A stretch of DNA of 64,000 nucleotides from Candidatus Rokuibacteriota bacterium (lineage in GTDB: Bacteria > Methylomirabilota > Methylomirabilia > Rokubacteriales > CSP1-6). This document shows positions 2,275 through 8,831 of the stretch, one piece after another. The translations under genes were made by a program, and so were the position numbers. The stretch covers positions 1 through 64,000 of the forward strand of contig JACPIQ010000004.1 in assembly GCA_016188005.1 (NCBI GenBank). Reading direction: 5' to 3'. A model generated the notes under the pieces. That model saw nothing but the letters and a program-made list of their open reading frames with translations, was not told where the DNA came from and ran no database searches. Numbering within the stretch: the stretch's first letter is position 1; each line of letters starts with the position of its first letter.

Positions 2275-2811
2275 TTAACCGCGCGACGACCCCCTTGCAC
2301 CCGTCGGGAGGAGGAAAGCCTCGAGATCAGCCGGGAATTGATTCCAGGTCAGGGGTTGCTCGAACACGTCCTCTATCCTGAAGTTGTTCTGCTTGCCGCG
2401 CACAACACCTCCCATCGCGGCTCGCTTGGCCGCCGTGGAGGTCAGGATCGTGAACCTGGGTTTCCCGGCGGGCTGGGTCAGATCGGCGAAGCACCATCGA
2501 AGAAGGGGGTCCCGGCTCTCGAGGAGATGAGAGGGAAGCAGAAGGAGATCGACTTGAGGTCCTTAGCCGTTCCGATCGCCGAAGCCGATACCCCCCGCCC
2601 GATGACCGGCGAAGGCCTTGAACTCGATAAGCCTCAGGGGGGTGCCAGGCGAGGGCGCCACCAGCACGCCGACGTCAAGGGCAAATGGCTCCAGGATGGC
2701 GTACCGGAGAGGGCCTGCGGCGCTCGCCTCGAGACGGAGCCGGATCCCGGAGACGGTTGCTGCCTGGAAGTCCGCCTCCGACGCGACGGCGGGGTCTACC
2801 GTCTGTGCCAA
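2275..2811 (-). pseudogene. Decayed hypothetical gene, nuclease-like, with an in-frame TAA
   Basis: Reading leftward from TTG 2811 there are 82 good-looking residues that end at a TAA (2560-2562) right after IGFGDRNG. The same frame then continues for about 94 codons of protein-like sequence (GPQVDLLLL, later TAAKRAAMGGVVRGKQNNF) to a TAA at 2275. One base change (for example GAA to TAA) would restore a single reading frame of about 178 residues. Upstream of 2811 further coherent peptide (SRLREAVDRW, HERLAQT) is spread over other frames, implying additional indels and a longer original gene. A strand ending IEFK is compatible with a PD-(D/E)XK nuclease core, but this is weak. It follows the DrmA-like remnant in the same orientation. 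Confidence 0.55.
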
Positions 2812-2865
2812 CCGCTCATGCCCTCCTTGAGCCCGCCCAACGGTCGACGGCCTCCCGGAGACGGC

Positions 2866-3140
2866 TCACCTCCTTGTCGTTGCCTGGGGCGCCCCGATGT
2901 CGGTCGTCCCCTCCTCCGGGGAGCCCTCACCGCCGACGGCGAGCTCATCGAACTCCTCGGCCTCGAGCATCTGGCGACGCGGGGCCAGCATGCCGACGAG
3001 GTAGCGATCTCCCGCACCGAGTTCTGGTCGATCTCCTCCTCTGGCCCCCCGGCGGGTCCGAGGAGGTCGCGCACAACGATGTCCTCGAACTCCGCACGGA
3101 TCTGGGAGGGGGACGGCGTCGGCAGCACGGGATCAGGCAT
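2866..3140 (-). pseudogene. Truncated, frameshifted N-terminus of a DrmA-type (DISARM) helicase
   Basis: From ATG 3140 the frame gives IRAEFEDIVVRDLLGPAGG and then PEEEIDQNSVR. Shifting frame near 3010 gives RYLVGMLAPRRQ, then a segment rich in Glu and Asp (EAEEFDELAVGGEGSPEEG), ending at a TGA at 2866. From memory this combination matches the start of the large helicase DrmA of DISARM-type systems, which is normally over 1000 residues long. Only about 90 residues remain, so the helicase core is gone. It begins 24 bp downstream of the Hsp70-like gene, suggesting it was once the next gene of that operon. The family assignment needs a profile search; the frameshift itself can be read directly. 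Confidence 0.5.
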
Positions 3141-3163
3141 CGCTCAGGCCTCCGGAGAGCAGG

Positions 3164-7700: not shown

Positions 7701-7811
7701 CACGCGCAGGCGCTCTCCCTCGCCGGTCACACGGCCCGTCGTCATGCCGAGCCTGCCGGGGTTGTCCCTGAGCCGGACGGCGACCCCCACCCACGCCTCG
7801 TCATGCCGCAT
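4698..7811 (-). CDS. SNF2-family DEAD/DEAH-box helicase
   Basis: This is a 1037-residue SF2/SNF2 helicase. The Walker A motif lies in [12 protein letters not shown] (Lys135), the DEAH box at about 252-255 ([10 protein letters not shown]) and motif III is LTATP. The C-terminal RecA lobe has [10 protein letters not shown] and [20 protein letters not shown]. The approximately 370 residues after the helicase core contain no recognised domain. A ribosome-binding site (GGGAG, 7 nt before ATG) supports the start. The gene overlaps the Hsp70-like gene downstream and follows an ADP-ribosylglycohydrolase gene about 200 bp upstream. It probably translocates on duplex DNA in an antiphage system. It is intact, unlike the second SNF2 helicase near 23 kb. 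Confidence 0.85.
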   Translation of the reverse strand: [1037 protein letters not shown]

Positions 7812-8015
7812 GGTGATCTCCCGGATACAGCCCTGCTGTGACAGAGAGGGTCGCGGCTCGCCATCCCGCGAGTCCGACGTGGAGAGGCCCGCGGGGTCTT
7901 CCTGCCACGGGCGGCAGAGCGCGACCCACCAGGCCCATCTCTCGCCCCAGGTCAGGCTGACATCCGCAGTCAGCGGCGGCCCAAACCGCTGTCTTCCACA
8001 CGGCGTCGTTCGGCA

Positions 8016-8831
8016 TCACGCTCCACCGGGGGCCGACTCCCTCCAGGTCGCCGCCAGGTCAGCCGCCACGGCCCGCACGCGTGCGAGCACGTCCGGGGGG
8101 TGGGCGAGGTCGCGTGGGTGGATGGCCACGCGCCCCCATCGCGCCCCCCCGAGGCTACCGACCAGCACCGGGCTGTAGTTGGAGGGCCCTGCGAATTCAA
8201 CCGCCCGCGCGAGCGCTCCCGAAAACGACGACGAGGCCCCCACGAAGAACACGGCCGCCCGCAGCACGTTCGGGCTGAATCCCTCTCGCGACAAGTCTTC
8301 ACCGCGCCGCTCTTCCAGCGCGCGGCGGATCTCTGCCACCCGCCCGGCCGCCGCCCTGTGGAGGGCTTCCTCCCACAACACACCGCGAATCAACGCACGA
8401 CATAGGACGACAGCGGCGGCGGCCGCATCTCCAGCGAGCGGGTGCCGATGGGTCAGGCATGCCTCGGCCTTTGCAGCGTCGCTCAGTTGCGAATCCTCGA
8501 TGGCCGCCAGCATGGCAAGCGGTGCGCTGCGATGGGCCGGGTTACAGCCTGCCGTCAGTCCGCCCACCATCGTGTGGACCTGGAGGGATGCGTCCTCGAT
8601 CAGCACCCCGGAGGACGCTAGCTCCAGTACCCGGGCGGCCGTCGTCCCCGTGTCGAAAGCGCCCTCGCGCCACCACGTGAGATAGCGCGCGCCGATATCC
8701 TGTGGATTGAAGGTCCCGAGGTCTCGGAGGCTCTCAGCGACTCGGAGAGCCATGCGGAGGGGTCCCCCGATCCGGTCTCCCGCGGCCAGACCGAGCAGCA
8801 GCCCTGCCACACGATCCTCGATCTCACCCAC
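8016..8831 (-). CDS. ADP-ribosylglycohydrolase-family (DraG-like) protein
   Basis: The protein of about 271 residues shows the ADP-ribosylglycohydrolase pattern. It has GLLLGLAAGDRIGGPL near the start, FDTGTTAARVLE, then THRHPLAGDAAAAAVV. A late segment, GALARAVEFAGPSNYSPVLVGSLGGA, matches the usual metal-site region, although the Asp residues that bind Mg are partly replaced (GPSNYS where GGDTDT is common). Activity may therefore be altered or lost. The GTG start at 8831 has a GGAG about 10 nt upstream; a longer ATG start at 8933 exists but would add an atypical N-terminus. It lies upstream of, and co-directional with, the SNF2/Hsp70-like pair, so a role in that module is possible. Confidence 0.7.
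   Translation of the reverse strand: MGEIEDRVAGLLLGLAAGDRIGGPLRMALRVAESLRDLGTFNPQDIGARYLTWWREGAFDTGTTAARVLELASSGVLIEDASLQVHTMVGGLTAGCNPAHRSAPLAMLAAIEDSQLSDAAKAEACLTHRHPLAGDAAAAAVVLCRALIRGVLWEEALHRAAAGRVAEIRRALEERRGEDLSREGFSPNVLRAAVFFVGASSSFSGALARAVEFAGPSNYSPVLVGSLGGARWGRVAIHPRDLAHPPDVLARVRAVAADLAATWRESAPGGA

Follow-up and report, generated by a model that had tools for sequence, protein, structure and literature searches.

The window, by which we mean the whole stretch of 64,000 nucleotides analysed, starts at a contig edge (G000:C4:1). The features that concern us are as follows:

526-1812, plus strand: Clostripain-family (Peptidase_C11) gene (Pfam), left of the pair described below and near the contig edge
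2308-2802, minus strand: decayed gene of 165 codons with one internal stop, possibly a PD-(D/E)xK nuclease remnant on a D...E-F-K motif reading
2866-3009, minus strand: drmA remnant, shifted frame, ending at a stop; 52% identity to residues 145-188 of the L073 DrmA, E 5e-12
3012-3140, minus strand: drmA remnant, first frame, 43 codons, start codon at 3140, 23 bp past the stop of the Hsp70-like gene
3164-4708, minus strand: intact gene for a predicted Hsp70-fold ATPase, 514 aa, nucleotide-binding domain (NBD) only, with about 60 disordered N-terminal residues
4698-7811, minus strand: intact SNF2 translocase gene, 1037 aa (PADLOC PDLC02623, 902 bits; Pfam SNF2; RapA by Foldseek)
8016-8933, minus strand: ADP-ribosylglycohydrolase-like gene, 305 aa (PF03747, E 5e-22)
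9246-12644, minus strand: TM0106-family RecB-like nuclease/helicase gene (TIGR03491, 298 bits)
12754-13788, plus strand: DDE_3 (IS630-type) transposase gene, flanked by the TM0106 and GapS1-like genes
13842-15677: gene of 611 aa with a weak match to the GapS1 family

The SNF2 and Hsp70-fold genes overlap by 11 bp (4698-4708), as the initial annotation had reported. It had also grouped the ADP-ribosylglycohydrolase with the helicase module, which did not hold up: no homologue lies beside any SNF2-Hsp70 relative tested, and the gene was rejected as a component because it is not conserved with the pair. Enzymes of this family usually carry a C-terminal metal-binding motif, D-x-D-T; in the window protein SNYS seems to stand where it would be expected, and from the motif the enzyme may be inactive. 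The TM0106 nuclease was likewise rejected as a fixed third component. A TM0106 gene also adjoins the SNF2 pair in two other loci (L053, L063), with a broken copy in another (L119), but others lie in different contexts (L068-L070); being recurrent near pairs but commoner elsewhere, it is a loose associate only. Elsewhere in the window (23170-33722, plus strand) there is an Hma-type island encoding an HmaA-like SNF2 helicase, a TmtA-like protein and an HmaB methylase, the HmaA reading seemingly being split over two overlapping frames near 23.5-24.7 kb.

The SNF2 protein matched the Pfam families SNF2-rel_dom (5e-24) and Helicase_C (3e-19), and its catalytic residues are intact, with the core motifs GKT, DEAH and QRIGRIDR. 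An N-terminal SH3/Tudor-like barrel, the SNF2 core and a RapA-like C-terminal part follow one another in the predicted structure, i.e., all three elements of a RapA-type SNF2 protein are present. RapA, a housekeeping RNA-polymerase recycling factor, was the best whole-protein match both by structure and by sequence, the Foldseek match to the model (6bog, E 4e-33) spanning the full length.

No Pfam or NCBIfam family matched the Hsp70-like protein. However, every PDB entry listed as matching its AlphaFold2 model (pLDDT 78.8, pTM 0.79) in Foldseek belonged to the Hsp70 family (7rax, the DnaK NBD: E 4e-11, probability 1.0), and the matching runs through the nucleotide-binding domain of these structures. 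Residues invariant across 17 relatives (D74, G76, T77, K145, P215, E272, D295, T300 and G420-G422) include those that we take, by motif, to be DnaK D8, K70, P143, E171, D194 and T199, and the conserved motif positions are the phosphate-binding, catalytic and proline-switch sites of the DnaK type. The earlier claim of an Hsp70-fold ATPase is therefore borne out by the predicted structure and the kept catalytic residues. The model has no C-terminal substrate-binding domain, order ending near residue 495 of 514. Versions from Leptolyngbya-type cyanobacteria (L033, L034, L035, L036, L039, L044, L050) carry an N-terminal extension of 255-366 residues with hydrophobic segments, which is missing in the Spirulina and Treponema versions. 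Membrane anchoring via the N-terminus was considered and dropped, since the segments are hydrophobic or amphipathic in some lineages and missing in others. The only PADLOC model matching the family was PDC-M61B, with short and weak matches to 8 of the 17 members (best E 4e-6); its partner model, PDC-M61A, matched nothing in the six records searched, in a run without a positive control.

Downstream of the Hsp70-like gene, the first frame of the drmA remnant is 51-57% identical over 33-41 residues to the DrmA proteins of L033, L074 and L073 (E 8e-10 to 5e-7). The second frame reads DRYLVGMLAPRRQ...DELA..EEGTTD, and both pieces show 46-57% identity with several DrmA proteins in the longer of their alignments. 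They fall on consecutive DrmA positions (106-140 then 145-188 of L073; 556-577 then 577-612 of PADLOC PDLC02567), and the coding GC signature carries across the frameshift (0.86 at the third codon position in both frames), which argues for a real frameshifted gene rather than a chance resemblance. In a genome of 140 contigs the frameshift may be an assembly error, but no frame carries the DrmA reading beyond about codon 90, and drmA would be truncated even then. A profile search of the rest of the genome gave no DrmA match at E 0.001. The initial annotation had described a frameshifted DrmA-like start cut off after about 90 residues, and this was confirmed; the fragment aligns to DrmA and does not belong to an unrelated family. 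For the gene beyond it (GC by codon position 0.70/0.48/0.76), which had been called a decayed nuclease-like gene, the decay was upheld but the nuclease label gained no support: that label comes only from the D...E-F-K reading, and no relative was found in plasmids, the phylum or PADLOC.

The SNF2 gene has an Hsp70-like gene adjacent to it in 29 of 29 loci from Cyanobacteria, Spirochaetota, Alphaproteobacteria and this genome (15 found by SNF2 query alone, 5 on plasmids, 8 by Hsp70 profile, and the window). The 15 are those on contigs long enough for neighbours to be judged; they come from Cyanobacteria and Treponema, at 33-53% identity, and the Hsp70-like gene adjoins in all. The Hsp70 profile, applied to 386 cyanobacterial and 393 spirochaete genomes, yielded the 8 further full pairs, all adjacent, together with Hsp70-like genes beside a truncated SNF2 gene in G205 and G283, and decayed Hsp70-like fragments without SNF2 in G063, G072 and G239. 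With the Hsp70-like protein as query against genome contigs no relative was found, and it was the SNF2 query that recovered them; phages gave no Hsp70-like match and viral contigs only a generic helicase. The Hsp70 gene comes first in Leptolyngbya-type cyanobacteria and the SNF2 gene elsewhere. Because both orders occur, the adjacency is more than inherited synteny, and the keeping of the pair through the swap indicates a joint function. Among 57 genomes of this bacterial family only the present one has the pair, i.e., the distribution is sporadic, and many cyanobacterial copies lie alone among ordinary genes (L035, L036, L038, L039, L042).

Some loci have further genes behind the pair that we record in passing. 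In Treponema a third gene with no Pfam match follows it (L045 14385-15191 and L046 14357-15388, plus strand), the two copies beginning alike (EGITWKKRKPRV and ENIDWEKRKPR). On plasmid pSF1 of Sphingobium fuliginis (L055 14613-20491, plus strand), PLD-domain genes that are ZacA-like (weakly) and ZacB-like lie behind the pair; in the literature searched, the letters Zac occurred only in unrelated senses.

Several pairs are embedded in defence operons. In a cyanobacterium (G123; L096, L113) the pair lies inside a complete, PADLOC-confirmed DISARM operon, all genes co-directional: drmD (2717-5974), SNF2 (5978-9154), Hsp70 (9158-10633), drmMI (10683-14627), drmA (14746-18228), then drmB and drmC, the spacing being 4 bp both ahead of the pair and between its two genes. 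In Nodosilinea and Tildeniella (L033/L043) a DrmA-like gene at the contig end lies downstream of the pair. The neighbourhood search proposed by the initial annotation, for the pair beside a full DrmA in other genomes, thus had a positive outcome. In a spirochaete (G853; L116, L109, L115) the pair sits within a BREX operon, between PglX and PglZ in the order BrxB-BrxC-PglX-pair-PglZ-BrxL; the PglX of this operon occupies two separate ORFs, and between them lies a third of 419 aa (L116 11278-16484, plus strand). In another spirochaete (G544) the genes directly ahead of the pair encode a type III methyltransferase and a protein that matches type III Res weakly. The genes preceding the pair in G848 are DruE-like, DpdE-like and type IIG-like, and its neighbours in Aminobacter are TM0106-McrBC genes on one side and Hachiman genes on the other. 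We are highly confident that the pairing and the embedding are as described here.

Rhizobium, Ensifer, Methanomethylovorans and G048 have, immediately behind SNF2, a gene for a protein with a Sacsin/Hsp90-type ATPase domain instead. Pfam SACS matched the Ensifer, G048 and Methanomethylovorans partners, and the Rhizobium proteins share 50% identity with that of Ensifer. G048 belongs to the same bacterial family as the window genome, and its Hsp90 version of the pair lies at L062 8236-14500 (minus strand). A maximum-likelihood tree, arbitrarily rooted and with some long branches, resolved three groups: Hsp70-paired SNF2 (98/98), Hsp90-paired SNF2 (96/90) and DISARM DrmD (100/100). The Hsp70 and GHKL folds are unrelated, yet both are ATP-gated clamps, an analogy that suggests that the partner's job is that of an ATP-controlled conformational switch.

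On balance, we consider it fairly probable that the two intact genes form a self-contained, mobile two-gene defence module, which can be added to DISARM, BREX or type III restriction-modification operons or stand alone, and in which an SNF2 motor and an Hsp70-fold ATPase work as a unit. We infer the defence role, direct contact between the proteins and the gating from the strict pairing, from the fact that the Hsp70-like protein lacks a substrate-binding domain yet keeps the catalytic residues and NBD-switch proline, and from the replacement of the partner by a Sacsin/Hsp90-type GHKL protein in a related clade. That the pair serves defence seems to us likely; the Hsp70-type gating mechanism is put forward tentatively. 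The ancestral locus would have carried drmA directly downstream, and drmA would have decayed while the pair stayed intact. The SNF2 protein, as a RapA/DrmD-type dsDNA translocase, might engage invading DNA, or transcription complexes on it, and then move or strip. The Hsp70-type domain might bind the motor, its ATP/ADP cycle controlling when the motor is loaded or released and when it is kept inactive. Several points count against a module: neither protein has a nuclease domain, which leaves the effector step without an explanation; there are lone cyanobacterial copies and Hsp70-like fragments without SNF2; occurrence is sporadic; and the N-terminal extensions vary with lineage.

The initial annotation had viewed the locus as the ruins of a DISARM-related system with an Hsp70-type component, and one could read it as a degenerate DISARM, the SNF2 protein being its DrmD and the Hsp70-like protein a lost or variant subunit. 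The drmA remnant only 23 bp downstream would fit, as would the fact that PADLOC names the helicase DrmD (PDLC02623, 902 bits) and that NCBIfam DISARM_DrmD scores it at 415 bits. However, the latter value is below the 610-bit cut-off, and the protein falls in a clade apart from DISARM DrmD. The PADLOC scores also diverge: the window SNF2 protein scores only 188 bits with PDLC02621, whereas the true DrmD of G123 scores 1142 bits with PDLC02621 and 123 bits with PDLC02623, so that PDLC02623, although named DrmD, best describes the Hsp70-paired clade. Since the G123 pair adjoins DISARM's own DrmD, it has been added to that gene rather than put in its place. No Hsp70-like gene was found by tblastn or profile in six canonical class-1 DISARM loci on plasmids, which, together with the separate clade, points to an add-on able to ride in DISARM rather than a DISARM subunit. 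In the window itself the only drmA, the profile search having found no other in the genome, is a frameshifted N-terminal remnant, and no DrmMI methylase, DrmB or DrmC was recognised adjacent to the pair, which is flanked by the Peptidase_C11 gene on the left and the ADP-ribosylglycohydrolase, TM0106 nuclease, DDE transposase and GapS1-like genes on the right. The earlier view was thus right in taking the fragment for DrmA, and the pair does occur inside one complete DISARM operon, but as it is also found in BREX, with type III restriction-modification genes or alone, calling it a DISARM component is not supported. We regard a degenerate DISARM as distinctly unlikely.

The RapA likeness invites another explanation, in which the target of the motor would be phage-modified polymerase or the RNA polymerase located on phage DNA, and the Hsp70-type domain would be a co-factor for remodelling; whole-protein matches by structure and sequence speak for it. 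Nevertheless, the BrxHII protein of type 3 BREX is also RapA-like and has a presumed DNA-unwinding role (PMC12839542), so that the architecture by itself cannot decide between DNA and transcription, and the operons that the pair joins are DNA-modification systems. We judge transcription targeting to be rather unlikely. It is very unlikely, in our estimation, that the Hsp70-like protein serves as a true chaperone in the folding or assembly of accompanying defence complexes (PglX, DrmA and others): although the Hsp70 fold, the intact ATPase residues and the position inside multi-subunit operons would suit such a role, the 514 residues include no substrate-binding domain, and the protein is always paired with SNF2, often without any other operon. 

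Our preferred reading remains the two-gene defence module. It would offer a case, open to testing, in which bacterial immunity has turned chaperone-fold ATPases into switches for a DNA motor, the Hsp70 and Hsp90/Sacsin types being exchanged, and it would mean that a helper module of this sort can be embedded in DISARM and BREX operons. More broadly, there may be, at a little short of an even chance in our view, an unnamed class of anti-phage modules in which a RapA-like motor is gated by an interchangeable Hsp70- or Hsp90/Sacsin-type ATPase, and which fit as a whole into DISARM, BREX and restriction-modification operons. Because PDLC02623 fits the pair's helicase far better than DISARM's own, present annotation probably hides such systems under the DISARM name.

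The initial annotation could not name a helicase-Hsp70-DrmA set, and we found no description of the SNF2-Hsp70 pair in the literature searched, which was mostly open-access; it may have been described elsewhere. A published catalogue that covers the auxiliary effectors found within BREX makes no mention of Hsp70, ASKHA or GHKL proteins in its main text (PMC12839542). The closest parallel in kind is CnuD of the CoCoNuT systems, with the related McrB-Hsp70 fusions: these are Hsp70-like, have both NBD and substrate-binding domain with degenerate Walker A-like motifs, and are tied to McrBC (PMC11090510, which also mentions DISARM-like systems with McrBC). Like CnuD, the window protein represents the recruitment of an Hsp70-like ATPase to defence loci of the restriction type; unlike CnuD as described, it has an NBD only, invariant catalytic residues and an SNF2 partner. 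General profile scans recognised no McrB-like GTPase or McrC/DUF2357 among the window genes scanned, and among the relatives McrBC is adjacent in Aminobacter only. RapA and BrxHII share the full-length SNF2 architecture, although no Hsp70 partner is described for either in PMC12839542. With class 1 DISARM the window locus has in common a DrmD-like SNF2 helicase and the drmA remnant, and one complete DISARM operon contains the pair; it differs in that its drmA is broken and that no methylase, DrmB or DrmC was recognised alongside. Finally, the SNF2-Sacsin/Hsp90 pairs form a separate clade and use a GHKL instead of an Hsp70 fold, but they have an SNF2 protein of the same wider family with a chaperone-fold ATPase adjoining it.
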